NCBI RefSeq assembly: GCF_009789075.1
Contig: NZ_WNXQ01000002.1
Coordinates: 372,001-436,000 of the forward strand
Origin: Pseudooceanicola pacificus
Lineage (GTDB): Bacteria; Pseudomonadota; Alphaproteobacteria; Rhodobacterales; Rhodobacteraceae
Length of the DNA: 64,000 nt
Direction: 5' to 3'
The position numbers were made by a program, and so were the translations under genes. The notes beneath the pieces are model-generated. The model was not told where the DNA came from, made no database searches, and worked only from the letters and a program-made list of their open reading frames with translations. Shown here piece after piece: positions 3,824-18,241 of this stretch (positions within the stretch are counted from its first letter, which is position 1; every line of letters begins with the position of its first letter).

Positions 3824-4891
3824 TCAGAGGGCGACCATCTGCTCCGGGTCGAATTCCAGCATCACGGTCGCGCCGACCTCGTGCCGGTCCGAGGGCAGGG
3901 CCGAGACGCGCAGCGCCTTGCCGGTCCCGGCCGGGCGCACCAGGTAATCCCAGTTCTCGCCCAGGTAGGAGCGTTCGTCGACCACCGCCTGCACCGCCGG
4001 TTTGCCATTGGGCTGAGAGCCCTCGGGCAAGAGGCGCAGCAGCTGCGGGCGGACCGAGAAATCCACCATCCCGGTGCGCGCGGCGGTTTCGGCCGGGAAG
4101 GCCCCTGCGTCCAGCCGGAAGCCATCGAATTCGAAGGCCCCGCCGACCTGCTTGCCGGTGATCAGGTTCGTCCGCCCGATGAAGCTGGCCACGAAATGGC
4201 TGCGCGGCTTGTTGTAGAGGTCGAAGGGCGTGTCGATCTGTTCGATCCGCCCCGCGTTCATCACCGCGATCCGGTCCGAGGCGACCATCGCCTCGCCCTG
4301 GTCATGGGTGACATAGACGGTGGTGATGCCGAATTCGTCGTGCAGGCGCCGGATCTCGAACCGCATTTCCTCGCGCAGGTTGGCGTCGAGGTTCGACAGC
4401 GGTTCGTCCAGCAGCAGCACGCCGGGTTTCACCACGATGGCCCGCGCCAGCGCCACCCGCTGCTGCTGACCGCCCGACAGTTCGGCCGGGTAGCGGTCGG
4501 CCAGGTGATCCATCTTGGTGACGCGCAGGATCTCCATCACCTGCCTGTCGATCTCGGATTTCGAGAACTTGCGCAGCTTCAGGCCAAATCCGACGTTCTG
4601 CGCGACGGTCATGTTCGGCCAGATCGCGTAGGACTGGAAGATCATCGACATGTCGCGCCGTTCCGGTGGCAGAGAGGTGCGGGCCGAGGACAGCTCGCGC
4701 CCCTCCATCGTGATCGTGCCGCTTGAGGGCCGCATGAAGCCCGCGATCATGCGCAGGGTTGTCGTCTTGCCGCAGCCCGAGGGCCCGAGGAGCGAGACGA
4801 ACTCGCCTTCCTCGATCGACAGGTTCACATCGTCAACGGCCCGGGCCTCTCCGTAGAGCTTGGTGATGCCGTTCAGGTCGAGCTTTGCCAT
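3824..4891 (-). CDS. ABC transporter ATP-binding protein (Fbp/Pot type)
   Basis: A 355-residue importer ATPase: Walker A GPSGCGKT at residues 36-43, Q-loop in MIFQSYAIWP, signature LSGGQQQR and Walker B VLLLDEPLSNLDA, then a C-terminal TOBE/OB-like domain (about 240-355). Sequence class is that of PotA/FbpC ATPases that serve spermidine, iron(III), aminoethylphosphonate or organic-anion importers. The ATG at 4891 shares one base with the stop of the permease gene (TGATG), so the two are translationally coupled. It is the last gene of a four-gene operon (two binding proteins, permease, ATPase) and faces away from the CoA-transferase genes. Confidence 0.9.
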   Translation of the reverse strand: MAKLDLNGITKLYGEARAVDDVNLSIEEGEFVSLLGPSGCGKTTTLRMIAGFMRPSSGTITMEGRELSSARTSLPPERRDMSMIFQSYAIWPNMTVAQNVGFGLKLRKFSKSEIDRQVMEILRVTKMDHLADRYPAELSGGQQQRVALARAIVVKPGVLLLDEPLSNLDANLREEMRFEIRRLHDEFGITTVYVTHDQGEAMVASDRIAVMNAGRIEQIDTPFDLYNKPRSHFVASFIGRTNLITGKQVGGAFEFDGFRLDAGAFPAETAARTGMVDFSVRPQLLRLLPEGSQPNGKPAVQAVVDERSYLGENWDYLVRPAGTGKALRVSALPSDRHEVGATVMLEFDPEQMVAL

Positions 4892-6633
4892 CAGTGGTTC
4901 GTCCTCATCATGAAGTCGCGTCCAACCAGCTTGAAACCCAGCCAGACGAAGAAGGTGGTGGTGACCAGGATGATGCAGCCGATAGCCGCAACCGCTTCGA
5001 AGCGGCCTTCCTCGGTCATGTCGAAGATCAGAACCGACATCACGCGGGACGAAGGGCCGACCAAGAAGATCGCCGCCGACAGCTCGCGGGTTGCCGGGAT
5101 GAACACCAGCAGGAAGCCGGCGAAGAGGGTCTTTTTCAGCAATGGCGCCACGACGTAACGGATCGCCGTCAGGCGACCGCCGCCGAGGACGCGCACCGCT
5201 TCCTCCATCTCGGGGTTGATGGAGCGCATCCCCGCCGCCGCCGTGCCGTAGGAAATCGGCAGGAAGCGGGCGATGAAGGCCACGATGATGATCGCCGAGG
5301 TGCCGTAAAGGCCAAGCGGCGGCGGCGCATAGGCCGCGTAGAAGCCGATGGCCAGCACGATGCCGGGGATCACGAAGGGCGCCATGCACAGGAAGGCCAG
5401 CACATTGGCAAAGGGCACCAGCTTGCGCGTGACCACATAGGCCACGCAGAGCGCGATGGTGAGCGCGCCACAGGCCGCCACGCCGGCGAAGTAGAACGAG
5501 TTCACGATCGCCTCCTGCGTCAGGCGCGAGACGAAGAGCACGTCATAGTAGTTCGCCAGCGTCAGGTTCGAGGCGGACATGCCCTTGCCCCAGGCCTCGG
5601 AGAACGAGGCGACGACCATGGTATAGCCGGGCAGGTACATCGCCAGCGCGCCGACGAAGCCGCACCAGGCCAGCAGGACCCATTTCCACTTGCCGATATC
5701 CAGCTCGCGCCGTTCGCCGCCCTTGCCGGTCTGGGTGACAAACCCTTTGCGGTTGAGAAGCAGACGCTGCACCCAGATCAGCGAGATGGTGATCAGCAGC
5801 AGCGGCATCGCATAGGCGGCGGCGACCTCCATCTTGAAGGGGTAGCCGAAGAACTGGAACAGCTGCGTTGTGACCAGGTTGATCCGCGCCGGGATACCCA
5901 GGATGGCGGGCACGCCGAAAAGCGCGATGGATTCAAGGAAGACGATGATGATGCCCCCCAGGATCGACGGCCAGACCAGCGGCAGCGTGATCTTGAGCGA
6001 GGTGTACCAGGTGGGCGAGCCGAGGATTGCCGCCGCCTCTTCCATCTCGGTCGAGATCATGTCGAGCCCGGCCTTGGTGAACAGGAAGATGAACGGAAAG
6101 GCGTTCAGCGCGATCATCAGCACGATGCCGAAGAAGCTGTAGATGTTGAACAGGGGCGTTTCCGCGCCGGTCAGCCATCTCCACCCCTCGTTCAGCCAGC
6201 CCGAATTCGGGCCCGCGATGAGGATCCAGCCGATCGAGGTCAGATAGGGCGGCAGGATGAAGGCGCCCAGGACCGAGGCCCAGGCGAACCACTTGGCCGG
6301 CATGTTGGTGCGCGACACGGCCCAGGCCATGGGCACCGCGAAGATGACGCAGAGCAGGGCCGTGCAGGCCCCCAGCAGGCAGGAATTGATCAGCGCCTGC
6401 AGATAGCGCCAGCGGCCATAGGCCTCCAGGTAGTTGTCCAGGGTGAAGGAGCCGTTGCCGCCCTCCTGGAAACTCACCTTGATCAGAAAGCCGATCGGTC
6501 CGACGACGAGGACGATCAGGACAAGGAAAAGCAGCGCCCAGAGCAGATTGATCGGCTCCAGGTTGAGGAACCGGCGCATATAGCCCCGGTTCCCTGCCGC
6601 GCTTCCGACGTATGGGGTGACATTGTCGGTCAT
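4891..6633 (-). CDS. ABC transporter permease, fused two-module (FbpB-like)
   Basis: A 580-residue permease made of two homologous BPD_transp_1 modules in tandem with about twelve membrane helices. Two EAA-loop signatures are visible: EEAAAILGSP in the first half and EEAVRVLGGG in the second; these contact the ATPase. This fused arrangement is typical of the FbpB/AfuB group, annotated as iron(III) permeases but also used for sugar phosphates, aminophosphonates and other anions. The start ATG at 6633 follows a GGAG-like site (GAAGGAGAC). It lies 30 bases after the binding-protein gene at 6664-7689. Given the CoA-linked neighbourhood, an organic substrate is more likely than iron. Confidence 0.9.
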   Translation of the reverse strand: MTDNVTPYVGSAAGNRGYMRRFLNLEPINLLWALLFLVLIVLVVGPIGFLIKVSFQEGGNGSFTLDNYLEAYGRWRYLQALINSCLLGACTALLCVIFAVPMAWAVSRTNMPAKWFAWASVLGAFILPPYLTSIGWILIAGPNSGWLNEGWRWLTGAETPLFNIYSFFGIVLMIALNAFPFIFLFTKAGLDMISTEMEEAAAILGSPTWYTSLKITLPLVWPSILGGIIIVFLESIALFGVPAILGIPARINLVTTQLFQFFGYPFKMEVAAAYAMPLLLITISLIWVQRLLLNRKGFVTQTGKGGERRELDIGKWKWVLLAWCGFVGALAMYLPGYTMVVASFSEAWGKGMSASNLTLANYYDVLFVSRLTQEAIVNSFYFAGVAACGALTIALCVAYVVTRKLVPFANVLAFLCMAPFVIPGIVLAIGFYAAYAPPPLGLYGTSAIIIVAFIARFLPISYGTAAAGMRSINPEMEEAVRVLGGGRLTAIRYVVAPLLKKTLFAGFLLVFIPATRELSAAIFLVGPSSRVMSVLIFDMTEEGRFEAVAAIGCIILVTTTFFVWLGFKLVGRDFMMRTNH

Positions 6634-6663: not shown

Positions 6664-7689
6664 CTAGGCGCCGAACACGCGCCGCCAGAGCTCGATCACC
6701 GGCTGCACGCCGTTGATCAGCTCGTCCTGCGTGGGCGAGGCGAGGTTGATTTCGTCGATCGCCTTGGCTCCGGGCGGAGGTGCCACTTCGGGCCGCATCG
6801 GCTGCAGGCCGTAGGTCACCATCAGATCCGAGGCGCGTTCGCTGAGAAGGTAATTGACGAACAGCTGTGCCGCATTGGGATGGGGCGCATTGGCCGGTAT
6901 GGCGGTGCCGCTCAGGGTCAGCTTGGCGCCGTCTTCGGGATAGATGATCTCGATCGGGTTGCCGGCGTTCTTGAGCCGGGTGACCGTGGCGAGGGTGCCG
7001 ATGCCGATGGCGCGTTCACCTGCAACCAGCGTATTGGGCGGGTCGGACAGCGAACGCCCGATCAGCGGGTCGTTGGCTTCGAGCTGTTCGAAGAACTCGT
7101 CGCCGTAGAGGCGGCGCATCAGCACGGCCCAGGACCCGGTGGAGCCGCTGAACCCCGGATGGGACATCGCAACCTTGCCTTTCCACTTCGGATCGACGAG
7201 GCCGGTCCAGTTGGTCGGCGCCTCCTCGGCCGTCACCAGGTCGGTGTTATAGGCCATGACGGTGGGGTTGGCCGAGGTCGTGTACCAATAGCCGTCGGGT
7301 TCGAAATCCAGGTAGGGCTTGCGCAGTTTCGGCCCGTTCTCGGGCGAGAACTGCAGCAGGTTGCCCTCTTCCTTGAGCGAGATCAGATGGGTCTGGTCGC
7401 TGCCGCTGAACACGTCGGCCTGCGCCACGCCGTTGCGCAGATCCTGCGCCAGCCGCGAATAGACGACCTGACCCGTCGCACGGATCACGTTCACATTCAC
7501 GCCCGGATAGGCATTGGTGAAGTCCTGGCCGATGTCTTCGGCGATGCTGGTGGTGAACTGGGCGACATACCATGTCACCTCGCCCTCTGCCTTGGCCTTT
7601 TCGTACAGCTCGTCGGTCGAAGTCTGGGCCGAAGCCCCGGTCGCGACAAAGGCGCCGAGGACGGCCGCTGCCAGTCTCGTGTAATGCAT
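6664..7689 (-). CDS. Periplasmic extracellular solute-binding protein, copy 1
   Basis: A 341-residue secreted binding protein of the FbpA/AfuA class. A signal peptide covers about residues 1-22 (hydrophobic run ending ATGASAQ). The mature protein shows EGEVTWYVAQF, ADVFSGSDQTH and DPKWKGKVAMSHPGFSGS, all characteristic of the family. The ATG at 7689 follows GGGAGGAAC at good spacing; an upstream in-frame ATG at 7806 would bury the signal peptide and is rejected. It is a close paralogue of the next gene (7775-8806), with long shared stretches, and lies directly upstream of the permease. The ligand is unknown. Confidence 0.9.
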   Translation of the reverse strand: MHYTRLAAAVLGAFVATGASAQTSTDELYEKAKAEGEVTWYVAQFTTSIAEDIGQDFTNAYPGVNVNVIRATGQVVYSRLAQDLRNGVAQADVFSGSDQTHLISLKEEGNLLQFSPENGPKLRKPYLDFEPDGYWYTTSANPTVMAYNTDLVTAEEAPTNWTGLVDPKWKGKVAMSHPGFSGSTGSWAVLMRRLYGDEFFEQLEANDPLIGRSLSDPPNTLVAGERAIGIGTLATVTRLKNAGNPIEIIYPEDGAKLTLSGTAIPANAPHPNAAQLFVNYLLSERASDLMVTYGLQPMRPEVAPPPGAKAIDEINLASPTQDELINGVQPVIELWRRVFGA

Positions 7690-7774
7690 GGTAGTTCCTC
7701 CCTGTGCCCGTATCGCCGGGCCCGCGTCCTTGATTTCCGGCCGGTGCACCCGGCCGGAAACCGTCATGCAGCTT

Positions 7775-8806
7775 TCAGCCGCCGAAGATGTCGCGCCATT
7801 CTTCAATGATGGGCTGCACGCCTTCGATGACTTCTTCCTCGCTCAGATCCGCAATCGGGATTTCCTCGAGCGAGCGCACGCCCTCGGGCGGTGCGACGTC
7901 CTTGCTGACCGGCAGCAGCCCGTTTTCGACCTGCCGCTGCGAGGCCTCGGGCCCGAGCAGGAAGTTGACGAACAACTGGCCGGCATTGGGGTGCGGCGCG
8001 GATGACAGCACGGCCGTCCCGCCAAAGGTCAGTTTCGCCCCGTCGGTCGGGTACACGATCTCGATCGGGTTACCCGCCAGCTTGTTGCGCACGGCAACCG
8101 AGAAGACGGCGATGCCCACGGCGCGTTCCCCGGCGGCGATCACGGTCGGCGGGTCGATCATAGAGCGGCCGATATAGGGGTCGTTGTCGCGCAGACCGAT
8201 GAAGAACTCGTCACCGTAGAGTTTCTTCATCAGCACCGCCCAGGATCCGGCGGAGCCGGAGAAGCCCGGATGCGTGATCGCCAGCTTGCCCTTCCACTTC
8301 GGATCGGTCAGATCGTCCCAGTTGGTGGGCGCGTCCTCGGCCGACACCTGGTCGGTGTTATAGGCCATAACCGAGGGGTTCGCGGTCGTGGCATACCAAA
8401 ACCCGGGCTGCATGTCCTTGAACGGAGCGCGCACACCATCGGCATCCGGGGGCGTGAATTCAAGCAGTTGGCCCTGTTTCTTCAGCTCGTAGAGGTGGCC
8501 GAGGTCAGAGCCGCTGAACACGTCCGCCTGGGCCACGCCGGCACGGATGTCCTGGGCCAGACGGGCATAGACGACCTGGCCCGTGGCGCGGATCACATTG
8601 ACCTTCACGCCGGGGTATTTCTCGGTGAAAATGGCGCCCATGTCTTCGGCCAGACCGGTCGAGAACTGGGCCACATACCACGTCAATTCCCCTTCTTCCT
8701 TGGCTTTCTCGTAGAGGGCCTGCACTTCGGGCGACATGTCCGCGGCGGCAACCGGGGCGGTTGCGGCGGACAGTACAAATGCAGCCGTTGTCAGAATTCT
8801 CTTCAT
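7775..8806 (-). CDS. Periplasmic extracellular solute-binding protein, copy 2
   Basis: A 343-residue paralogue of the preceding protein, with a signal peptide ending near AAAPVAAAD-like sequence (about residue 22) and the same landmarks: LTWYVAQFSTGLAEDMG, VNVIRATGQVVYARLAQD, DPKWKGKLAITHPGFSGSAGSWAVLMKKLYGDEFF. The ATG at 8806 lies just after a GGAGGAG site encoded in the leader; the in-frame start at 8821 would place that site inside the gene. It is the first gene of the importer operon and its promoter region holds a GntR-type operator (8953-8963). Two binding proteins for one permease suggest either a widened ligand range or a recent tandem duplication. Confidence 0.9.
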   Translation of the reverse strand: MKRILTTAAFVLSAATAPVAAADMSPEVQALYEKAKEEGELTWYVAQFSTGLAEDMGAIFTEKYPGVKVNVIRATGQVVYARLAQDIRAGVAQADVFSGSDLGHLYELKKQGQLLEFTPPDADGVRAPFKDMQPGFWYATTANPSVMAYNTDQVSAEDAPTNWDDLTDPKWKGKLAITHPGFSGSAGSWAVLMKKLYGDEFFIGLRDNDPYIGRSMIDPPTVIAAGERAVGIAVFSVAVRNKLAGNPIEIVYPTDGAKLTFGGTAVLSSAPHPNAGQLFVNFLLGPEASQRQVENGLLPVSKDVAPPEGVRSLEEIPIADLSEEEVIEGVQPIIEEWRDIFGG

Positions 8807-8952
8807 CGGGTCTCCTCCCATCAGGGCGGCGCGGTTCTGTCGCGTCTCGCCGTACCGGACGGTGCTGGCCTGCGGATTTCAGACGCTCCCGGCGGAGTTC
8901 GAACCCCGCGCTTTCCCGGGCGCCGCTTTGTCTGACCATCGCCGTCATTTTT

Positions 8953-8963
8953 TGGTATGACCA
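8953..8963. promoter_or_regulatory. GntR-type operator site A (TGGT-ATG-ACCA)
   Basis: TGGTATGACCA is a perfect TGGT-N3-ACCA inverted repeat, the core recognised by FadR-subfamily GntR regulators such as PdhR. The core is identical to the site in front of the GntR gene at 17310-17324. It sits 147 bases before the start codon of the first importer gene. Confidence 0.65.
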
Positions 8964-9053
8964 TACTGACGGGGGTGCGATTTCTGTCAAGGTATATTTG
9001 GTATGCTGTCATGACAACTCATATCTGAAGTGGATTCCGGTTGTGTGCCTTCT

Positions 9054-9066
9054 TTGGTCGGACCAA
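9054..9066. promoter_or_regulatory. GntR-type operator site B (TTGGT-CGG-ACCAA)
   Basis: TTGGTCGGACCAA is a perfect 13-base inverted repeat of the same type as sites A and C. It ends 34 bases before the ATG of the CoA-transferase gene, where a bound repressor would block transcription or early elongation. Confidence 0.68.
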
Positions 9067-9100
9067 TATGCCTCAACCGTGAAAACCAGGGAGGTACGAC

Positions 9101-10312
9101 ATGGCAGGCGCATGGACCGGGGCGGATGCCCGTGCGGGAAAACCGCTGGCGCGAATCAAGGTGATCGACCTGACGCTTGCCCGGGCGGGGCCAACCGCCG
9201 TGCGGCACCTGGCGGACTGGGGCGCCGACGTGATCCGGATCGAGCCTCCGGCGGCGGATGCCGGATCGGACCCGACGGGCGCCACGCGGCACGGATCGGA
9301 CTTCCAGAACCTGCACCGCAACAAGCGGGCGATCACGCTGAACCTGAAAAGCGAGGAGGGGCTGGCGCTCTTCATGAAGCTCGCCGCAGAGGCCGACGTG
9401 ATCGTCGAGAACATGCGCTCTTCGGTCAAGGCCCGGCTCGGCGTCGATTACGAGTCGGTGCGCAAGGTGAATCCGGGGATCGTCTACGGCTCGATCTCGG
9501 GCTTCGGGCAGGACGGGCCCTATGCCACGCGCGGCGGGGTCGACCAGATCGCCCAGGGCATGGGCGGGCTGATGTCGATCACCGGGCTGCCGGGGCAGGG
9601 GCCGGTGCGCGTGGGCATCCCGATTGCCGATCTCTGCGCCGGGGGCTACCTGGCGATGGGGATCATGATGGCGCTGTTCGACCGCGAGGCGACGGGGCAG
9701 GGACGCTGGGTCACCACCTCGCTGCTCGAGGCGATGGTGGCGATGCTCGACTTTCAGGGCTCGCGCTGGACGATGGATGGCACGGTGCCGCAGCAGGCGG
9801 GCAACGACCACCCGACCGGCATCCCGACCGGGGTCTTTCCCACCAGCGACGGCAATATCAACATCGCGGCCTCGGGCCAGCGGTTGTGGGAACGCTTTGC
9901 CCATGCGGCGGGGCTGGAGGCGCTGATCGCCGATCCGCGCTTTGTCGACGGCAAGAGCCGGTCCGCGAACCGGGTCGGGCTGAACGCCCTGATCGCCGAA
10001 AAGACGCGCCTGCAGACATCCGCCCACTGGGTCGATGCGCTGATGGAGGTGGGCGTGCCCTGCGGTCCGATCAACTCCATCGACCAGACCTTTGCCGACC
10101 CGCAGGTGCAGCATCTGGGCCTGTCCAAGAGCGTCACCCATCCGGAGATCGGCGCGATCAACATCGTCGCCTCGCCGCTGCAGATGACCGGCACGGATCG
10201 CGAGATCGCCAGCGCCGCACCGGATCGCGGCCAGCACACCGACGACGTGCTGGGCGCCCTGGGCCTGGGCGCGGACGAGATCGCGGGCCTGCGCGCCCGC
10301 AACGTGATCTGA
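9101..10312 (+). CDS. CaiB/BaiF (family III) CoA-transferase
   Basis: A 403-residue family III acyl-CoA transferase, which moves CoA between carboxylic acids through an aspartyl-CoA intermediate. It shows the family N-terminus (IKVIDLTLARAGPTAVRHLADWGADVIRIEPP), the HRNKRAITLNLK motif and the catalytic aspartate region PIADLCAGGYLA with D177 as the likely nucleophile. The C-terminal small domain contains GVPCGPINSIDQTFADPQV. The ATG at 9101 follows GGGAGGTACGAC. It begins a two-gene operon with a crotonase and is preceded by operator B. Its likely role is activation of the imported carboxylate to its CoA thioester; the acid is unknown. Confidence 0.92.
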   Translation: MAGAWTGADARAGKPLARIKVIDLTLARAGPTAVRHLADWGADVIRIEPPAADAGSDPTGATRHGSDFQNLHRNKRAITLNLKSEEGLALFMKLAAEADVIVENMRSSVKARLGVDYESVRKVNPGIVYGSISGFGQDGPYATRGGVDQIAQGMGGLMSITGLPGQGPVRVGIPIADLCAGGYLAMGIMMALFDREATGQGRWVTTSLLEAMVAMLDFQGSRWTMDGTVPQQAGNDHPTGIPTGVFPTSDGNINIAASGQRLWERFAHAAGLEALIADPRFVDGKSRSANRVGLNALIAEKTRLQTSAHWVDALMEVGVPCGPINSIDQTFADPQVQHLGLSKSVTHPEIGAINIVASPLQMTGTDREIASAAPDRGQHTDDVLGALGLGADEIAGLRARNVI

Positions 10313-10323
10313 GGGAGCCTCAC

Positions 10324-11127
10324 ATGCAGAACCTGGAAACCAGCAGCCCCCGCATCCTGGCCGCCAAGGGCGACGGGATCGGCTGGCTGACCTTCAACCA
10401 GCCCGAAAAACGCAACGCCATGTCGCTGGACATGTGGCAGGCCACCGGCGAGGTGCTGGAGTCCTTTGGAGCGGATGACGAGGTGCGCGTGGTCGTGATG
10501 CAGGGCGCGGGGGATCGCGCCTTTGTCTCGGGCGCCGATATCTCGCAATTCGAGAAACACCGCAGCAATGCCGAAGCCTCGGCCGAATACAACCGGATCG
10601 CGGGCCATTCGCGCAAGATGCTCGCCATGCTCGACAAGCCGCTGATCGCCAAGATCCGGGGCTATTGCATCGGCGGCGGGCTGGCGGTGGCGCTGGCGGC
10701 GGATTTCCGCATCGCCTCGGAGGACAGCCAGTTCGGCATCCCGGCGGCCAAGCTGTCGATTGTCTACCCCTATGACGGGATCAGACTGCTGAAGGAGCTT
10801 GTCGGACCGGGCAATGCCAAGAAGATCCTCTTTTCGGGCTTCCGCTATCCGGCGGCCGAGGCGCTGCGCATGGGCCTGATCGAAGAGGTCACGCCGGTGG
10901 AGGAGCTGGACGCCGTGGTGCGCAACTATGCCGAAACCATCGCGGGCAACGCGCCCCTGTCGATCAACGGCACCAAGCAGGCGATTCGCGAGATGGGCCG
11001 GAACGAGGCCGACCGCGATCTCGACCGGCTGGCGGCCCTGCAGACCGAGGCGATGAATTCGGCCGATTATGCCGAGGGGCGCCGCGCCTTCATGGAAAAG
11101 CGCAAGCCGGTCTTTACCGGGACCTGA
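10324..11127 (+). CDS. Enoyl-CoA hydratase/isomerase-family protein (crotonase) lacking both catalytic glutamates
   Basis: A 267-residue crotonase. The oxyanion-hole segments are intact (FVSGADISQF near 67-76; IRGYCIGGG at 111-119), and the C-terminus ends with the usual RRAFMEKRKPVFTGT. However, the two positions that hold acid-base glutamates in classical enoyl-CoA hydratases (second residue after GGG, and the E of FGQPE) are alanine here (A121, A141). Water addition by the standard mechanism is therefore doubtful; other crotonase reactions such as isomerisation, hydrolysis or C-C cleavage are possible. The ATG at 10324 lies 11 bases after the CoA-transferase stop, with GAGGGAG between, so the two genes form an operon. 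Confidence 0.88.
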   Translation: MQNLETSSPRILAAKGDGIGWLTFNQPEKRNAMSLDMWQATGEVLESFGADDEVRVVVMQGAGDRAFVSGADISQFEKHRSNAEASAEYNRIAGHSRKMLAMLDKPLIAKIRGYCIGGGLAVALAADFRIASEDSQFGIPAAKLSIVYPYDGIRLLKELVGPGNAKKILFSGFRYPAAEALRMGLIEEVTPVEELDAVVRNYAETIAGNAPLSINGTKQAIREMGRNEADRDLDRLAALQTEAMNSADYAEGRRAFMEKRKPVFTGT

Positions 11128-11154
11128 GCGCCTGTCCGGTGGCGGGGTCCGGTG

Positions 11155-13149
11155 TCAGGACTTGCCGCCGGATTTCCCCGGGCCTTTCGATGCGCCCCAG
11201 ACCGCCTTGGTCCCGCCGCGCCGCGCGGCCGGGGCGGGGGACCGGTCCTTGGCCGGGCCCGATTTGGCGGGGCCGGACTTGCCCTTGCCACCGGCGCGCA
11301 CCGGGCGGTCGAACCCGCCGTCGCTGCGGCTCGCCGACTTGCCCGGCGCACCTTTGGGCGCGGATTTGGCTGCGGATTTTGCCGGGCCCTGGAACTGGCC
11401 CTTGGGCTTGTAGGCCTTGACCCCGCCGGGGCGCATCGGCTCGGGCGCATCCTGGGGGGGCTCGCTGCGGGCGGGGGCCTCCTGGGGTCTGGAATAGTCC
11501 GATTTCGGCGCATAGGTCCGGGGCGCGGCGGCCGCGGGCTTGCGGGCCGGGGTTGCGGCGGGGGCGCGTCCGCCTGCGGGCGGGCCGTCGACCGGGCGGG
11601 CCGAAACGCCTTCCTCCAGCGTGCCGTCATCGCCGAGCGCGGCGACAAAGGACGTCGCGGCCACCTCGGTCAGTTCGACAAATGTCTCGCTCTGCTGCAC
11701 GCGGATCGCGCCGATGGCGTCCTTGTCCAGCCCGGCGGACCGGCAGATCAGCGGCAGCAGCCAGCGCGGTTCCGCCCGGTCGTCGCGCCCGACGGACAGG
11801 GCGAACCAGCGGCTGGGGCCAAAGGGGGCGCGCTCGGGGCGCGGGGCGCGGGTGTCGGGATCGGCCAGATCCTCGGGTGCGGAATGGCGCGCGCGGTAGA
11901 GCCTGAGATAGGCGGCGGCAATCGCGCGGGCATCGTGCAGGCCCAGCAGACGGTCGGCAAAGGCCGCGGCCTCCTCCGTCACCTCTTCGTCCCAGACCGG
12001 ATCGCCCAGCAGGCGTTCCTCGTCCTTGCGCAGGATCTCGTCGGCGCCGGGGGCGGCGATCCATTCGGCGGTCACGCGCGCGGTCTTCAGCAGGCGTTCG
12101 GCCCGTTTGACCATCTTGGGCGGCACGATCAGCGCCGAGATTCCCTTGCGTCCGGCGCGCCCGGTGCGGCCCGACCGGTGCAGCAGGCCCTCGGAGTTGG
12201 TCGGCAGTTCGGCATGCACCACCAGCTCCAGGTTCGGCAGGTCGATGCCGCGCGCCGCCACGTCGGTGGCCACGCAGACCCGGGCCCGCCCGTCGCGCAT
12301 CGCCTGCAGGGCGTGGCTGCGTTCCGCCTGGCTGAGCTCTCCGGACAGGGTGACAACCGCAAAGCCCCGGTTGCCAAAGCGCGCGGCCAGCCGGTTCACG
12401 GCGGCGCGGGTGTTGGCAAAGACGATGGCGTTCTGCGCCTCGTGGAACCGCAGCACGTTGATGATCGCGTTCTCGGCATCCTGCTGGGCGACGCGCAGGG
12501 CCTGATAGGCGATGTCGGCATGCTGGCGGGTGTCGGACAGGGTGGTCACGCGGACCGCCTCGCGCTGGTACTTCTGCGCCAGGGTGGCGATCATCGGCGG
12601 CACGGTGGCGGAAAAGAGCAGGGTGCGCCGGTCCTCGGGCGCTTCGCCCAGCATGAATTCCAGATCCTCGCGAAAGCCGAGGTCGAGCATCTCGTCCGCC
12701 TCGTCCAGCACCACGGCGCGCAGGGCGCTCATGTCCAGCGATCCGCGCTGGATGTGGTCGCGCAGCCGGCCGGGCGTGCCGACGACGATATGCGCGCCGC
12801 GCTCCAGCGCGCGCCGTTCGTCGCGCATGTCCATGCCGCCGACGCAGGTGGCGACCCGGGCGCCGGTGCGCGCGTAAAGCCAGCCGAGTTCGCGTGCCAC
12901 CTGAAAGGCCAGTTCCCGCGTCGGGGCGATCACCAGCGCCAGGGGCGAGGCCGCATGGCCGAGCTTGCCCGCCTCGTCCAGGATCGAGGGGCCGATGGCC
13001 AGCCCGAAGCCCACCGTCTTGCCCGATCCGGTCTGGGCCGAAACCAGCAGGTCGGCCGCGTCGAGCGCCGGGTCGGTGACCGCCAGCTGGACGGGGGTCA
13101 TGGTGTCGTAACCACGCTCGGCGAGCGCATCGGACAGGGTCTGGATCAT
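11155..13149 (-). CDS. DEAD-box ATP-dependent RNA helicase with DbpA-type RNA-binding domain and long basic tail
   Basis: A 664-residue RNA helicase of the DeaD/CsdA-DbpA type. Motifs in order: Q motif GYDTMTPVQ (13-21), Walker A AQTGSGKT (38-45), PTREL, the DEAD box in VLDEADEMLDLGF, SAT in FSATVPP, and HRSGRTGRAGRKG (motif VI). A DbpA-like RNA-binding domain follows (WFALSVGRDD to QQSETFVEL), then a tail of about 130 residues very rich in Pro, Ala, Lys, Gly and Ser. The start is taken at 13149 because the family begins with a short segment before the Q motif. It unwinds structured RNA, probably in ribosome assembly or cold adaptation, and has no functional link to the catabolic genes on both sides. 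Confidence 0.92.
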   Translation of the reverse strand: MIQTLSDALAERGYDTMTPVQLAVTDPALDAADLLVSAQTGSGKTVGFGLAIGPSILDEAGKLGHAASPLALVIAPTRELAFQVARELGWLYARTGARVATCVGGMDMRDERRALERGAHIVVGTPGRLRDHIQRGSLDMSALRAVVLDEADEMLDLGFREDLEFMLGEAPEDRRTLLFSATVPPMIATLAQKYQREAVRVTTLSDTRQHADIAYQALRVAQQDAENAIINVLRFHEAQNAIVFANTRAAVNRLAARFGNRGFAVVTLSGELSQAERSHALQAMRDGRARVCVATDVAARGIDLPNLELVVHAELPTNSEGLLHRSGRTGRAGRKGISALIVPPKMVKRAERLLKTARVTAEWIAAPGADEILRKDEERLLGDPVWDEEVTEEAAAFADRLLGLHDARAIAAAYLRLYRARHSAPEDLADPDTRAPRPERAPFGPSRWFALSVGRDDRAEPRWLLPLICRSAGLDKDAIGAIRVQQSETFVELTEVAATSFVAALGDDGTLEEGVSARPVDGPPAGGRAPAATPARKPAAAAPRTYAPKSDYSRPQEAPARSEPPQDAPEPMRPGGVKAYKPKGQFQGPAKSAAKSAPKGAPGKSASRSDGGFDRPVRAGGKGKSGPAKSGPAKDRSPAPAARRGGTKAVWGASKGPGKSGGKS

Positions 13150-13317
13150 CAGGAAACCGTTTCGCGTCTGTGGGCGATGCGCCGCACCGCCTCCCGTCAT
13201 GGCGACGGGTGAAAACGCGCCTCCTAACGCAACACGGGGGCAATGTATATGGGGATTATCGCGGGCAGGCGTTTTCGGGGCCCGCGCGGGCGCCGCGCCC
13301 GTGCCCGGCGCGGTGAG

Positions 13318-13338
13318 GTCCCCGCGCAAGGCGGGGAC
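13318..13338. repeat. Hairpin repeat, copy 1
   Basis: GTCCCCGC (13318-13325), loop GCAAG, GCGGGGAC (13331-13338): a perfect 8-base stem. A second copy with loop ACAAG lies 113 bases downstream, within a partly duplicated surrounding sequence. Confidence 0.7.
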
Positions 13339-13430
13339 GCGGGGGGACGTGGGGCGGCTGACCTTGGTTCAGGGCGGGCCGGATTGGGTCGGGTCTGGCG
13401 TGGGGAGCGGTTGTGCCCAGGTCCCGCCGG

Positions 13431-13451
13431 GTCCCCGCACAAGGCGGGGAC
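13431..13451. repeat. Hairpin repeat, copy 2
   Basis: GTCCCCGC (13431-13438), loop ACAAG, GCGGGGAC (13444-13451): same stem as the copy at 13318-13338 with one loop change. Confidence 0.7.
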
Positions 13452-13474
13452 GTGGGGACGTGGACGGGGCGGGC

Positions 13475-13882
13475 TCAGCCGGTGGGGACCCGTGGCCGGA
13501 ACTGCGGGATGGTCTGGCCGAAGCTTTCGCCCAGCTCCAGCCTCAGGGGCATGTCGATCCTGAGCGAGTCGTTCGGGGCGAGGATGTTCGAGATCAGCCG
13601 CGGCCCCTCGTCCAGTTCCACCACCGCAACGTTATAGGGAATCCGGTCCTTGAACGCCTCGTGATACGGGCGGTGGTAGACGACCCAGGAGATCAGCGTC
13701 GCGCCGCCCTGTGCCGCCTCCCAAGCCAGATCGGGCGAGAGGCAGGCGGTGCATTCCTCGCGCGCCGGAAGCTGGGCCGCCCCGCAGGCGCGGCAGCGCT
13801 GGAACTCCAGCCGCCCGCCGTCGAGCGCGGACCAGAAGGCCCCGGCGGGGCCGGTGCGGTCGGGCTTCACCTCGGCGCTCAT
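13475..13882 (-). CDS. Zn-ribbon / OB-fold (DUF35) acyl-CoA-associated protein
   Basis: A 135-residue protein of the DUF35 family: an N-terminal rubredoxin-like zinc ribbon (CRACGAAQLPAREECTAC, four cysteines at about residues 32-50) followed by an OB-fold (TLISWVVYHRPYHE to VAVVELDEGPRLISN). DUF35 proteins pair with thiolase-like enzymes or with aldolases such as the steroid side-chain enzyme Ltp2 and help bind the acyl-CoA. Its ATG overlaps the stop of the thiolase-like gene (ATGA at 13879-13882), as expected for subunits made together. It is the last gene of the acyl-CoA dehydrogenase operon. Confidence 0.88.
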   Translation of the reverse strand: MSAEVKPDRTGPAGAFWSALDGGRLEFQRCRACGAAQLPAREECTACLSPDLAWEAAQGGATLISWVVYHRPYHEAFKDRIPYNVAVVELDEGPRLISNILAPNDSLRIDMPLRLELGESFGQTIPQFRPRVPTG

Positions 13883-15009
13883 TGGCCCAGCACCAGTGTG
13901 GAATGGGTCTGCATCACGCCCCCCTGATTGGAAATCACCACGTTGCCCGCCCCCTTGACCTGGTTGACCGAGGTGCCGCGCATCTGGCGCACGCCCTCGT
14001 GGATCAGCTGCATCCCCGGCATCCCGGTTTCCGACAGCAGCCCGCCCGAGGTGTTGAAGGGCAGGGCCCCGTCCTGCATCAGCGCGCCATCCTTGACGAA
14101 ATCGGCCGCCTGGCCTTTCTGGCAGAAACCGTAGTCCTCCAGCGTCATCAGCGCGGCGATGGTGAAGCAGTCGTAGATCTGCACGCAATCGACATCCTGC
14201 GGGGTCAGGCCCGCCATCTTCAGCGCGGTCGCGCCCGAGGTTTGGGCCATCGTGCTGGTCATGTCGCGGCGATAGGCGACCTCGTAGAAGGTCTGCCCGT
14301 AGCCCCAGCCGAGGATCGGGACGGGCGCGTCGACGCCCAGTTCGGCGGCCTTCTTCGCGCTCATGATCACCACCGCGCCGCCGCCGTCCGAGATCAGGGT
14401 GCAGTCGTCGCGCCTGAGCGGAGCGACCAGCGGATCGGCGGCAAGGTAGTCGTCCATGTTCAGCGGGTTCCGCACCTGCGCCTTGGGGTTCCTTACGCCG
14501 TGGTTGCGCGCGGCCATGGCGATAGCACCAAAGGCCTCGGGCGGGGTTCTGAATTCACCGATATGGCGCTGCATGATCATGGCATAGCCGGGGAGGGTGC
14601 CGAACCAGCCGTAGAGGCTGTCATCGCCCCGGGGCCTGGCATAGACGGCGGCATTCCCGGTGCGCGGATTGTCGGCGAAGGAAACGACGGCGATGTCGAT
14701 CTGCCCCGCCTCGATCGCCATGCAGGCGATGGAGATCAGCGTGGCATTGGCCGCGCCGCCCTGATCCCAGGCCCCGCCCATCCGGGGCTGGATGCCGAGG
14801 GCCGAGGCGACCTTGACCGTGTAGAGCATCTGGAAGTCGCTGGTCGGAGGCTTGACGAAGAGCGCATCGACCCGGTCCTTGTCCACCCTGGCGTCACTCA
14901 GCGCCGCGCGGATCGCCTCGACATTCAGCGAGACCGAAGAGCGGCCGGGATGCTTGCCAAAGGCGGTGGCCCCGATGCCGGCGATGACGCATGTGCCGGA
15001 GAGGGTCAT
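13879..15009 (-). CDS. Thiolase-fold (SCP-x/Ltp2-like) protein without thiolase Cys/His
   Basis: A 376-residue protein with the thiolase fold: CVIAGIGATAFGKHPG at the start, a central DNPRTGNAAVYAR region and the C-terminal NTSGGLLSETGMPGMQLIHEG and VKGAGNVVISNQGG loops. Classical thiolases carry a nucleophilic Cys near residue 85; here the equivalent stretch is WDQGGAANAT, with no Cys. The GHP histidine motif reads GMP, and the C-terminal CxG cysteine is replaced (SNQGG). This resembles the Ltp2 class, which with a DUF35 partner performs retro-aldol cleavage instead of thiolysis. It is coupled to the DUF35 gene and lies 98 bases after a crotonase in the same operon. Aldolase function is an inference; SCP-x-like thiolase is the alternative. 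Confidence 0.82.
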   Translation of the reverse strand: MTLSGTCVIAGIGATAFGKHPGRSSVSLNVEAIRAALSDARVDKDRVDALFVKPPTSDFQMLYTVKVASALGIQPRMGGAWDQGGAANATLISIACMAIEAGQIDIAVVSFADNPRTGNAAVYARPRGDDSLYGWFGTLPGYAMIMQRHIGEFRTPPEAFGAIAMAARNHGVRNPKAQVRNPLNMDDYLAADPLVAPLRRDDCTLISDGGGAVVIMSAKKAAELGVDAPVPILGWGYGQTFYEVAYRRDMTSTMAQTSGATALKMAGLTPQDVDCVQIYDCFTIAALMTLEDYGFCQKGQAADFVKDGALMQDGALPFNTSGGLLSETGMPGMQLIHEGVRQMRGTSVNQVKGAGNVVISNQGGVMQTHSTLVLGQ

Positions 15010-15106
15010 GGGTGGGGTCCTTGGGATTGTTCACAGTTTGCGGATGGAACGGGGCATTGCGGATTCATTGTTTCGGAAATCAGCGTCAATGCGACGGCCA
15101 TGCCAG

Positions 15107-15883
15107 TCATCGCCCCTTGAACTCCGGCTTGCGCTTCTCGCGGAAGGCCTTAGGCCCTTCCTTGGCGTCCTCCGTCTCGCGCAGGGCCCTCGAGACCATC
15201 GCCTCCATCCGCAGCCCGGTGGTCAGATCCATGTCGAACGAGCGCACCGCCAGCTCCTTGGAGGCCTGGACCGCCAGCGGCCCGTTGGCGGCGATCCGGT
15301 CGGCATAGTCCAGCGCCGCGTCCATCAGCTGATCGGGCGGCACCACCTTGTTGATCAGCCCCCAGTCCCTGGCCGTGGCCGCGTCGATCCGGTCGCCGGT
15401 CAGCAGGAATTCCATCCCCAGGCAATAGGGCAGCTGCTTCAAGGTCCGCTGCGTGCCGCCATTGGCCGCGATGATGCCGCGCTTGACCTCGGACAGGCCA
15501 AAGGTCGCGGTTTCGGAGGCCACGCGGATGTCGGTGCCGTAAAGCATCGTCACCCCGCCGCCCAGGCAATAGCCGTTCACGGCGGCGATCACCGGCTTCC
15601 AGACCTCCAGCCCGCGGTTGAGCAGCTGGTCGCGCTGCGTCAGCCAGTTGTCGGCCCAGTCGGCCTGCACCGTCACGACCGATTTCAGGTCGGCCCCGGC
15701 GCAAAAGCTCTTGTCGCCCGCGCCGGTCACCACGGCCACGCGGACGGCCTTGTTGTCGCGGACCTCGATCCAGGCCGCCGACAGCGCCTTGTAGTGATCG
15801 GCATCGAGCGCGTTCATCGCCTCGGGCCGGTTGATGGTGATCGTGGCGATGCCCTCGGGGCTGAGGGTCCAGTCGATGGACAT
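15107..15883 (-). CDS. Enoyl-CoA hydratase/isomerase-family protein
   Basis: A 258-residue crotonase. The oxyanion-hole residues are in FCAGADLK (60-67) and VNGYCLGGG (102-110); the C-terminus is KAFREKRKPEFKGR. Of the two classical hydratase glutamates the second is kept (E132 in FGLSE) while the first is threonine (T112), a pattern more like isomerases or other crotonases than standard hydratases. The start ATG shares a base with the acyl-CoA dehydrogenase stop (TGATG at 15881-15885), so it is translationally coupled. It probably acts on the unsaturated acyl-CoA made by that dehydrogenase. Confidence 0.88.
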   Translation of the reverse strand: MSIDWTLSPEGIATITINRPEAMNALDADHYKALSAAWIEVRDNKAVRVAVVTGAGDKSFCAGADLKSVVTVQADWADNWLTQRDQLLNRGLEVWKPVIAAVNGYCLGGGVTMLYGTDIRVASETATFGLSEVKRGIIAANGGTQRTLKQLPYCLGMEFLLTGDRIDAATARDWGLINKVVPPDQLMDAALDYADRIAANGPLAVQASKELAVRSFDMDLTTGLRMEAMVSRALRETEDAKEGPKAFREKRKPEFKGR

Positions 15884-17088
15884 CAGCGCCTCCCGTTCAG
15901 CAGGTTGCGGGCGACGACCATGCGATGCACCTCGGACGGACCCTCGCCGATACGGTGGATGCGCAGCTCGCGGTACCAGCGTTCCAGCGGCAGTTCCTTG
16001 GACACCCCCAGCCCGCCGAGGATCTGCATGCAGCGATCCACCACGCGGCCTGCGGTTTCGGTTGCGGTGACCTTGGCGATCGAGGCCTCCAGCTTGAAAT
16101 CCTGCCCCAGATCGCCGCGCCAGGCGGCGTCATAGACGATCAGCCGGGCGGCGCGCAGCTCCATCTCGCTATCGGCCAGCATCCACTGGATTGCCTGCTT
16201 GTCGGCCAGGGCCGAGCCGAAGGTTTCACGCTCCTTGGCCCATTTCACCGCGATATCCAGCGCCGCCTGGGCCACGCCGATGGTGCCGGCGGAATACTGG
16301 ATGCGGTTGTCGACCAGCCATTTCTCGGCCAGGCGAAATCCGCCGCCTTCCTCGCCCAGCAGGTTTTCGGCCGGGATCTCGACACTGTCGAAATGCAGCT
16401 CAAAGGGCGAATAGGCCCGGATCACGGGGATCTCCTTCATTGTCAGGCCGGGGGTGTCCCGGTCGACGATGAAGGACGAGATGCCGGACCGCCCGCGCCC
16501 GCCGGTGCGGGCATAGACGATGCCCCAGTCGGCCTTGGCCGCCCCGGTGATCCACATCTTGGAGCCGTTGAGGATGTATTTCCCGCCGACCTTTTCGGCC
16601 TTGAGCTGGATCGCCCGGCCCGGATCGGCCCCGCCCGAACTTTCCGAGATCGCGACAAAGCATTTGCTGCCCTTTTCGACCCCGGGCAGGCCGTATTTTT
16701 CGACCTGCTGGCGGTTGCCTTCCCAGATCACATTGGGCGGATCGGCGCCAAAGGCCCCGCATGCGGCGTTGTAGAGGCCCATACGGACCTGTTTCGCCTC
16801 TTCGGCCCAGACCGCCTGGCCCAGCAGGTTCAGCCCCGCGCCGCCGTAGTCGACGGGCGTGCGCACGCACCACAGGCCCAGCGATTTTGCCTTGTCCTGC
16901 AAGGGTTTCAGCTTGTCGGGCGGGCAGAAGGTGGCGTCATGCTCCAGCGTGTCCTCGACCGCCTTGACGTCGTTCTGCACGAAACGGCGCACCGTCGCCT
17001 GCAACTCGCGGTATTCGTCCGGCATCTGCCAGGCGCCGAATGCGCGCCCGGTGTCCTCGACACCGGAACCTTCGACAAAGCTGTCCAT
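15883..17088 (-). CDS. Acyl-CoA dehydrogenase
   Basis: A 401-residue FAD-dependent acyl-CoA dehydrogenase: N-terminal helical domain (YRELQATVRRFVQNDV), the substrate/FAD loop CFVAISESSGGADPGRAIQL, the beta-domain with GSKMWITGAAKADWGIVYARTGG and the C-terminal helical domain with QILGGLGVSKELPLERWYRELRIHRIGEGPSEVHR. The catalytic base is E382 in IGEGPSEV, at the medium-chain (MCAD-type) position. It introduces the alpha-beta double bond in an acyl-CoA and passes electrons to ETF. First gene of a four-gene leftward operon; operator C (17310-17324) lies 222 bases upstream. Confidence 0.93.
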   Translation of the reverse strand: MDSFVEGSGVEDTGRAFGAWQMPDEYRELQATVRRFVQNDVKAVEDTLEHDATFCPPDKLKPLQDKAKSLGLWCVRTPVDYGGAGLNLLGQAVWAEEAKQVRMGLYNAACGAFGADPPNVIWEGNRQQVEKYGLPGVEKGSKCFVAISESSGGADPGRAIQLKAEKVGGKYILNGSKMWITGAAKADWGIVYARTGGRGRSGISSFIVDRDTPGLTMKEIPVIRAYSPFELHFDSVEIPAENLLGEEGGGFRLAEKWLVDNRIQYSAGTIGVAQAALDIAVKWAKERETFGSALADKQAIQWMLADSEMELRAARLIVYDAAWRGDLGQDFKLEASIAKVTATETAGRVVDRCMQILGGLGVSKELPLERWYRELRIHRIGEGPSEVHRMVVARNLLNGRR

Positions 17089-17470
17089 TCAGATCACTCC
17101 CAAGCTCTCATCCATCACGTCGCCCGCGCGGGGCCAGGCCCGGATCGGACAGGCGGCGCGGTCTTCAACTGGCGGCATGGGGTGGGGCAGGGCACAGGCA
17201 TCCCGCTGCCGTGGCGCCCATGCACGGGCCGCCGCAGACCAGAGGGATATCCGGTGCGCTGATGGGTCCTCCCCGGCACGATAGTTGGTGTTGCGTGCCG
17301 CCTCGATTAATTGGTATGACCAATGAAACGGGGTGTCAATATGGCATCCGCGACCGTGTCACCGCGGCGGCAGCATTGATTTCCGCAATGGGCCGACGCA
17401 CTACAACCGGACAGATCGGGCCGCCTGTGGCCGCAATCGGGGACCAGAACCCATAGGAAGTCTGCAGTCA
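17089..17470. promoter_or_regulatory. Divergent control region between acyl-CoA dehydrogenase operon and GntR gene
   Basis: About 380 bases with no convincing gene. The key element is the perfect inverted repeat ATTGGT-ATG-ACCAAT at 17310-17324. From 17285 to 17345 the sequence is richer in A and T than its surroundings, fitting overlapping divergent promoters. A GTG at 17333 could start a longer regulator but the added 46 residues look non-coding. Confidence 0.55.
17310..17324. promoter_or_regulatory. GntR-type operator site C (ATTGGT-ATG-ACCAAT)
   Basis: A perfect 15-base inverted repeat that matches the PdhR-type consensus ATTGGT-N3-ACCAAT. It lies between the divergent acyl-CoA dehydrogenase operon and the GntR gene and shares its 11-base core with site A at 8953. 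Autoregulation and control of the catabolic operon are the obvious inference. Confidence 0.75.
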
Positions 17471-18241
17471 TTGAGAGAGTCGCTTGCGATCCGGTTCAGC
17501 GCCGGGGGCGAGACAGCCGTGCAGCGCCGCTACGAGATCCTGGCGCAGGAGCTGCGCGGCCTGATCCTGTCCGGCGAGCTGAAAGTGGGCGACCCGCTCC
17601 CGGCCGAGCGCGACCTGGTCGAGATCACCGGCCTGGGGCGCGGCTCCGTCCGCGAGGCGATCCGCATCCTGGAGATCGAGGGCCTTCTGTCGCCCAAGAA
17701 GCCGGGCCGCAAGGGGGTGAGCGTGGTGCAGAACGCCTCGGACCAGACGGTGCAGCGGCAGCTGGAACTGTTCATCGGCGGCGACAGCGTGTCCAACGAC
17801 CACCTTTTGCAGGCCCGCATGGTGATCGAACCGGCGCTGGCCCGCATCGCCTGCGACATGCGCACCGATGACGATATCGAGGCGATGCGCGCGATAAACG
17901 CCAGGATCGAGGCGATCGGCAATGCCGACCGGGGCGCGCTGGTGCAGCTGAACCTGGACTGGCATTCGCAGATGTTCGCCGCCAGCCACAACGACCTGCT
18001 GGTTGCCATCGCCATCGGGCTGACCGAAACCCAGCACCGCGCCGGGGTGATGGGGCAATACGGTTCGCAGGAACATGTGCGCCTGATGGTCGAGGCGCAT
18101 GGCAAGATCCTCGAGTCGATCATCGCCCGGGACGGAGAGCGGGCCTATCGGCGCACCTATCTTCACCTGCGCGGATATGCCGATACGCTGGCCAAGAAGA
18201 ACCCGCGCGAATTCGACCTCACGCCGCTGAACCCGCGCTGA
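17471..18241 (+). CDS. FadR-subfamily GntR transcriptional regulator (FCD domain)
   Basis: A 256-residue regulator from a TTG at 17471, preceded by AGGAAG at about nine bases. An upstream in-frame GTG at 17333 is the alternative; its extra 46 residues do not resemble the family. The N-terminal winged helix (about 15-85) contains LSGELKVGDPLPAERDLVEITGLGRGSVREAIRILEIEGLL. The C-terminal FCD ligand-binding domain (about 105-230) has scattered His and Asp residues (DWHSQMF, SHNDLL, EAHGKI, LHLRGY) suited to metal and carboxylate binding. Three operators of the expected type (8953, 9054, 17310) lie in this region. It probably represses uptake and catabolism until the carboxylic acid or its CoA ester appears. 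Confidence 0.88.
   Translation: MRESLAIRFSAGGETAVQRRYEILAQELRGLILSGELKVGDPLPAERDLVEITGLGRGSVREAIRILEIEGLLSPKKPGRKGVSVVQNASDQTVQRQLELFIGGDSVSNDHLLQARMVIEPALARIACDMRTDDDIEAMRAINARIEAIGNADRGALVQLNLDWHSQMFAASHNDLLVAIAIGLTETQHRAGVMGQYGSQEHVRLMVEAHGKILESIIARDGERAYRRTYLHLRGYADTLAKKNPREFDLTPLNPR

Follow-up and report, generated by a model that had tools for sequence, protein, structure and literature searches.

Gene island and palindromic sites

The window analysed here is a 64-kb stretch (64,000 nucleotides) of Pseudooceanicola pacificus DNA (contig NZ_WNXQ01000002.1, positions 372,001 to 436,000), and window positions count from its first base. It carries an island of uptake and catabolic genes with a GntR-type regulator gene and three copies of a palindrome. 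By direct reading of the sequence we found TGGTATGACCA at 8953-8963, TTGGTCGGACCAA at 9054-9066 and ATTGGTATGACCAAT at 17310-17324. The three palindromes are real, and they stand in the two divergent control regions where an earlier sequence-only reading of this DNA had placed them. As 15-base candidate operators, to which no strand is assigned, they are operator 1 (TTTGGTATGACCATA, 8951..8965), which precedes the gene of solute-binding protein 1 by about 130 bp, operator 2 (TTTGGTCGGACCAAT, 9053..9067), 33 bp before the coenzyme A (CoA)-transferase gene, and operator 3 (the perfect ATTGGTATGACCAAT, 17310..17324), between the acyl-CoA dehydrogenase and GntR genes. With the genes as assigned here, the two gaps are thus solute-binding protein/CoA-transferase and acyl-CoA dehydrogenase/GntR.

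Leftward from operator 1, on the minus strand, run the genes of an ABC importer: solute-binding protein 1 (7775..8821; Pfam), solute-binding protein 2 (6664..7686, start approximate; Pfam and similarity to solute-binding protein 1), a permease (4891..6633; Pfam/NCBIfam) and an ATPase (3824..4885, start approximate; ABC_tran 2.3e-38, TOBE_2). Rightward from operator 2, on the plus strand, are a family III CoA-transferase of the CaiB/BaiF kind (9101..10312; Pfam 7.1e-113) and ECH1, a crotonase-family protein above the cut-off for subfamily PRK06127 (10312..11127; Pfam/NCBIfam). Leftward from operator 3 (minus strand) lie the acyl-CoA dehydrogenase (15883..17088; Pfam and solved relatives), a second crotonase-family protein, ECH2, presumed to be a hydratase (15107..15883; Pfam ECH_1 2.3e-65), a thiolase-like protein with a YDCF motif, predicted to be a retro-aldolase from domain matches, solved relatives and alignment (13879..15009), and its DUF35 partner, of the ChsH2-type zinc-ribbon/OB-fold (13475..13882; assigned by domains and the cysteine pattern given below). 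The regulator gene runs rightward from operator 3 (17471..18241, plus strand). Its product has GntR (PF00392, 1.8e-14) and FCD (PF07729, 3.1e-20) domains, both above the Pfam cut-off, which agrees with the FadR-type GntR that the sequence-only reading saw beside the third site. The TTG start at 17471 is our reading; the longest open reading frame (ORF) begins at 17333.

The core TGGTN3ACCA occurs exactly three times in the window; dinucleotide shuffles average 0.35 and 0 of 100 reach three. The 15-mer with up to three mismatches is not enriched in the window (9 seen, 8.62 expected). The genome of the organism (3,888,276 bases, 66.85% complete) contains 21 copies of the bare 8-base core against 63 of a reversed control. 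TTGGTN3ACCAA is found twice in these 3.89 Mb, both times in the island. A genome-wide consensus scan had been proposed in the sequence-only reading; in the extended, A/T-flanked form WWTGGTN3ACCAWW it returned three sites, all in the island, and none for the reversed control. Because the loose 15-mer is not enriched and the bare core is common, the informative signal is the exact core with its A/T flanks. Eighteen core matches lie outside the island, six of which were fetched and scored. The best of these six (16.3 bits) was set aside; it coincides in part with the beginning of an ORF whose domains are PHP and DNA polymerase III alpha.

The regulator and its probable operators in related genomes

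A comparison of GntR-family regulators (PMC4494728) describes the operator consensus of the FadR subfamily as an A/T-rich palindrome with TKGT and ACMA boxes, in which GT and AC are typically 3 nt apart; the published PdhR box is (A)ATTGGTnnnACCAAT(T) (PMC7660256). The island motif matches both, and its assignment to the FadR/PdhR operator type by the sequence-only reading holds. The island sites share the A/T-rich palindrome, the boxes and the 3-nt spacing, and they adjoin the regulator gene and the predicted target genes. The regulator is also like PdhR, LldR, GlcC and ExuR in joining a GntR winged helix to an FCD domain. Unlike the named members, it scores far below the NCBIfam equivalog cut-offs listed (NanR 94 vs 260; PdhR 70.6 vs 330, which rules out a PdhR orthologue), and its predicted targets form a local catabolic island. 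It is present in 4 of 22 genomes of the genus at E<=1e-30 and in 2 of 295 genomes of the family at E<=1e-40 (about one genome per genus), its own genome included in both counts. A profile search of genome contigs with the regulator alignment returned only Pseudooceanicola onchidii and one weak partial match (34%). At the E-values used, and that partial match aside, the regulator was found in no other genus.

Two relatives keep operators at corresponding places. The congener G309, whose regulator is 68% identical, has AATGGTATGACCATT in the same dehydrogenase/GntR gap, and its enzyme genes are syntenic (identities: dehydrogenase 92%, crotonase 88%, aldolase 88%, DUF35 74%, CoA-transferase 78%, ECH1 74%). 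In G313, with a regulator 50% identical, TATGGTCCTACCATT lies between the GntR and DUF35 genes, and a second extended site, AATGGTCACACCATT, is found on a different contig, where the gene of a dehydrogenase 88.5% identical to that of the window follows after about 35 bp. These two are the only extended sites in the G313 genome. The dehydrogenase site is counted as non-coding from the homology start; the longer start of the ORF caller would include it. One regulon is supported because G309 and G313 keep operators, in G313 also before an unlinked dehydrogenase, and in our judgement this unlinked gene, which still carries a putative operator, is the strongest single piece of evidence. G313 has in addition a weaker site with one core mismatch (AAAGGTAACACCATT, 16.7 bits), between the crotonase(ECH2)-aldolase operon, placed by homology, and an ADP-forming acyl-CoA synthetase gene, named by its domains. 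It is weak on its own, since random sequence would yield about three such places in every 3.9 Mb.

Across the genus, the extended site is present in 4/4 genomes with the regulator and 5/18 without it (one-sided Fisher 0.017). By simple ORF calls, 9/9 sites are non-coding in genomes with the regulator vs 1/6 in those without (p 0.002), or 2/6 with one doubtful ORF set aside (p 0.011).

In all four promoters that face a dehydrogenase or DUF35 gene (dehydrogenase in the window, G309 and G313; DUF35 in G313), the operator was seen by eye to follow a TTGAC(A/T) box at a distance of 9 or 11 bp. In the window this candidate -35 element is TTGACA at 17334-17339 on the minus strand, 9 bp from operator 3. 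Because operator 3 and its counterparts lie just downstream of the presumed -35 box, repression without inducer is most likely; the operator would overlie the spacer and the -10 region, which tentatively suggests repression by occlusion. Another candidate -35 TTGACA, also found by eye, is at 8985-8990 (minus strand), 19 bp from operator 1. No TTGAC box adjoins operator 2.

Several results weigh against one regulon of this extent. Operators 1 and 2 share no common TTGAC spacing (19 bp and none), and a sigma-70 promoter scan gave no sigma-70-like match in the window gaps. Six of these very sites were used to train the matrix behind the operator scores, and the high scores of those six are circular. 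No operator precedes the CoA-transferase/TRAP genes of G309 (best 8.2 bits in 18 kb), where the CoA-transferase comes after genes for a TRAP transporter and for a 2-hydroxyacid dehydrogenase. No homologue of the ABC importer was found in the fetched G309 stretches, which have the TRAP transporter genes instead. The G313 dehydrogenase appears to have a separate history, because the remaining island genes there are just 53-62% identical to those of the window vs 88.5% for the dehydrogenase. G192 has the regulator and no core site beside the regulator gene, and a search of it for the aldolase at E<=1e-100 gave no match. Its two extended sites, one of them the perfect ATTGGTTCGACCAAT (L042 9642-9656) before an RTX/Hint-domain protein gene and the other near a VTT protein gene, have no visible link to the pathway. 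In G309 a second extended site (L040 10162-10176) is followed, after about 90 bp, by a sucC-like gene for succinyl-CoA synthetase; the site possibly connects the CoA-transferase with its succinyl-CoA supply, or is there by chance. Since the G192 sites and this G309 site adjoin other genes, the regulator may have further targets, or some of the sites may be accidental. Six extended sites occur in the 5 of 18 genomes without the regulator, set beside 3 of the reversed control in all 22. One of these genomes, G314, has the same 15 bases as the G309 operator (L044 8917-8931) within the reading frame of what looks like an MFS transporter, which cautions against single-site evidence.

The sequence-only reading had joined the importer, the CoA-transferase/crotonase pair and the dehydrogenase in one regulon. 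The dehydrogenase/GntR side of this claim stands, with the site kept in two relatives; the other side is weakened by the missing CoA-transferase site and importer homologue in G309. The comparison with relatives that it had called for is likewise mixed, with sites kept in G309 and G313 and none beside the G192 regulator or before the G309 CoA-transferase.

The thiolase-like protein and its DUF35 partner

The best solved relatives of the thiolase-like protein are 4u4e, 6ok1 (7.7e-52) and 9myr (2.6e-38). 6ok1 is Ltp2 with ChsH2; 9myr appears from its chain names and motif to be the Sal complex. The DUF35 protein is encoded alongside, and its two best solved relatives come from the same two entries, 6ok1 and 9myr, where they are the partner chains. 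It has ChsH2 domains and a zinc ribbon of the form C-x2-C-x10-C-x2-C. The retro-aldolase look of this "thiolase" is absent from the sequence-only reading.

A canonical thiolase has a nucleophilic Cys and the histidine of an HGG motif. When aligned to 6ok1 and 9myr, the window protein shows DQGGAANAT and NTSGG at these places, and so has neither; Ltp2 and the 9myr protein have NTHGG vs its NTSGG. We aligned 13 sequences: the window protein, eight from genome loci (two of them of congeners) and four from three plasmids. YDCF is present in 12 of the 13, which are all 12 orthologue-like sequences, i.e., the window protein and 11 orthologues; the thirteenth, a second thiolase (paralogue) on a Hydrogenophaga plasmid, has YDAF. 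Asn is the last residue of GGAAN in 10 of the 12 orthologue-like sequences, and TcLtp2 has GGGAAC nearby in the alignment. According to PMC12329534, the catalytic residues of CtSal are Tyr302 and Cys304 of YDCY, Sal has Gly at the thiolase nucleophile position, TcLtp2 uses YDHF and Tyr344, and the TbSLP motif is YDCF. The motif of the window protein is thus of the YDC(Y/F) form. Because YDCF is kept, Asn mostly stands at GGAAN, and the relatives and the DUF35 partner are of Sal/Ltp2 type, we infer with moderate confidence that the protein performs retro-aldol cleavage, not thiolysis.

Two features of the alignments speak against this assignment. The orthologues of G037 and the NT-25 plasmid have Cys in place of Asn (GGAAC), and a Gly of the window protein aligns to Tyr344, the second acid residue of Ltp2 (the corresponding residue of Sal is Gln352), adjoining a 2-residue gap in the 9myr alignment. 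These GGAAC proteins would suit ordinary thiolysis by a true thiolase of the BbsB kind, with a 3-hydroxyacyl-CoA dehydrogenase encoded elsewhere. NCBIfam does list BbsB at 3.3e-32, though with 111.8 vs 750 bits, far below the cut-off, and other loci of the module carry Ldh, SDR or 2-hydroxyacid dehydrogenases. We regard thiolysis as doubtful, although it fares best among the alternatives: no 3-hydroxyacyl-CoA dehydrogenase is seen among the ten island proteins scanned, the window protein differs from Ltp2 at GGAANA vs GGGAAC as well as at NTSGG, and YDC(Y/F) contains the Sal catalytic dyad (PMC12329534).

Among known systems, the Sal/Shy-DUF35 bile-acid aldolase of Comamonas and the Ltp2-ChsH2 aldolase of Thermomonospora are alike in having a thiolase-like subunit with a DUF35 partner and YDC(Y/F), and 6ok1 and 9myr are within the top three solved matches. 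The island differs from both in having a separate crotonase, not a MaoC-DUF35 hydratase, and apparently at the Tyr344/Gln352 position, and from Sal in the C4 zinc ribbon of its DUF35 protein (C3H1 in Sal). The benzylsuccinate (Bbs) route is a pathway of anaerobic toluene degradation. The island resembles it in its family III CoA-transferase, acyl-CoA dehydrogenase, crotonase and thiolase-like protein with a zinc-ribbon partner, and relatives of BbsB and benzylsuccinate CoA-transferase are among the matches listed. The Bbs pathway was rejected on the NCBIfam cut-offs, BbsB being as far below as noted above; the island also has one CoA-transferase gene and no hydroxyacyl dehydrogenase among the proteins scanned. 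The carnitine Cai enzymes belong to the same CoA-transferase, crotonase and acyl-CoA dehydrogenase families, and the Cai pathway was discarded with all three enzymes far below the NCBIfam cut-offs (107.3 of 413, 183.1 of 500 and 145.2 of 540).

Proposed regulon and distribution of the module

It is likely, judging from sequence and comparative data, that the local FadR-subfamily regulator binds the three sites and switches three units jointly for the import and aldolytic cleavage of a carboxylic acid. In this scheme the GntR/FCD protein would bind WWTGGT-N3-ACCAWW at three places and control the genes of the ABC importer, the pair of CoA-transferase and crotonase genes and the operon for acyl-CoA dehydrogenase, crotonase, aldolase and DUF35 protein, with its own gene adjoining operator 3. 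The repression predicted from the promoter layout would be released by a carboxylate or its CoA ester. The acid would be imported and receive CoA by transfer; the acyl-CoA would be dehydrogenated, and the double bond hydrated. The resulting beta-hydroxyacyl-CoA would then be split by a Sal-type retro-aldol reaction to a short acyl-CoA and an aldehyde, ketone or keto acid. The sites, the gene families, the operator conservation and the active-site motif can be read from the sequences; the binding, the repression, the class of inducer, the substrate and the order of reactions are deductions.

The switch could instead be all that the units have in common, the CoA-transferase/ECH1 pair and the importer serving another acid than the dehydrogenase-aldolase operon. 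The window CoA-transferase is just 32-37% identical to the CoA-transferases within the five-gene blocks of five genomes (below). Plasmids of Roseivivax and Octadecabacter (L050 6545-11419, L051 6585-11429) have CoA-transferase/enoyl-CoA hydratase pairs beside genes for malonyl-CoA synthase and a GntR protein; there a CoA-transferase/enoyl-CoA hydratase/thioesterase set is divergent from these genes. At the positions that we take to be those of the crotonase catalytic Glu residues, ECH2 keeps one and ECH1 neither by alignment, so it is uncertain which of the two hydrates. Two separate chemistries are unlikely all the same, because the pair adjoins the same operon in G309 as well (78% and 74% identical) and a CoA-transferase is inside the block in six other loci.

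The sites could also serve another FadR-type regulator, with the local GntR protein acting elsewhere or sharing them. The main candidate is a second regulator on contig C2 of the own genome (L008 14391-16460), which is 53% identical to the window regulator, has a nearly identical recognition helix (RGSVREAIRILESEGLL vs RGSVREAIRILEIEGLL in the window regulator) and stands before a CoA-transferase 70% identical to that of the window. No operator core lies near the C2 paralogue, which counts against this alternative and also against the regulon as proposed. G309 and G313 have one regulator each at E<=1e-30, with a site beside that regulator, and we consider a switch by another regulator improbable. 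Chance matches are a very remote explanation of the palindromes: the bare core is no rarity in the genome, though below its reversed control, and the window shows no excess of the loose 15-mer, but the exact extended sites are 3/3 in the island and their placement is kept in G309 and G313.

The preferred reading, a joint switch by the local regulator, gives a regulon of an already known kind. It is well supported by comparative genomics and the operator switch is probably real; the enzyme module is the more novel part. At E<=1e-90 the aldolase is present in 5/384 other genomes sampled across the class. The order dehydrogenase-crotonase-CoA-transferase-aldolase-DUF35 is found in four of these five (G680, G665, G538 and G606), in G037 of the family sample and on the NT-25 plasmid. 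G507, the fifth aldolase genome, gave no dehydrogenase or CoA-transferase match in the fetched stretch. In G665 and G606 the locus has an IclR regulator and runs on into genes for hydantoinase/oxoprolinase A and B and for a beta-keto acid cleavage enzyme; two further genes, scanned in G606, encode an aminotransferase and an Ldh-type dehydrogenase. A related block on plasmid pBPS33-1 of Hydrogenophaga sp. BPS33 (L037 9028-17686) also encodes TctC, the second thiolase and a 3-oxoacid CoA-transferase; an IS1071 transposase gene on either side of it suggests that it is a mobile catabolic cassette. The module-side GntR genes of the Hydrogenophaga and Roseomonas plasmids have no TGGTN3ACCA nearby, and the similarity of their products to the window regulator is mostly in the part that binds DNA. 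In these loci, uptake and activation genes vary while dehydrogenase, crotonase, aldolase and DUF35 genes mostly stay together.

Two parts of the island fall outside this core. The adjacent solute-binding protein genes (6664-8821) are 62-64% identical to each other, with one permease and one ATPase behind both, which suggests two substrates, or two affinities, for one importer. A 2-aminoethylphosphonate ABC importer (PhnS2/U2) was ruled out on NCBIfam scores below the cut-offs (98.1 of 392.75 and 174.6 of 593.25), and a search of plasmids with the importer protein at E<=1e-80 gave no match. A long minus-strand ORF (11155-13329), by eye a putative DEAD-box helicase, separates the two enzyme groups; no homologue of it turned up by tblastn at 1e-8 in the stretches of G309 that were fetched.

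The sequence-only reading had proposed an undescribed pathway for an organic acid. This stays an inference, and the dehydrogenase-crotonase-CoA-transferase-thiolase-DUF35 block occurs in other bacteria beside other regulators; among the matches listed, no description of this island was recognised in the open-licence literature. We tentatively regard the island as one version of a widely scattered "aldolytic beta-oxidation" module for a non-steroid carboxylic acid. The importer (ABC, TRAP or TTT), the CoA-activating enzyme (CoA-transferase or ADP-forming synthetase) and the regulator of such a module would be exchangeable, and in this genus it may have come under a FadR-type operator of its own, one that persists even when the genes are no longer together. 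With a regulator, its sites and the genes that it presumably switches, the operator gives access to an orphan catabolic module. If the aldolase reading is true, retro-aldol removal of acyl-CoA by Sal/Ltp2-type enzymes would extend from the steroid side chains on which it has been described to another class of substrate, and the regulator could act as a biosensor for finding the substrate.

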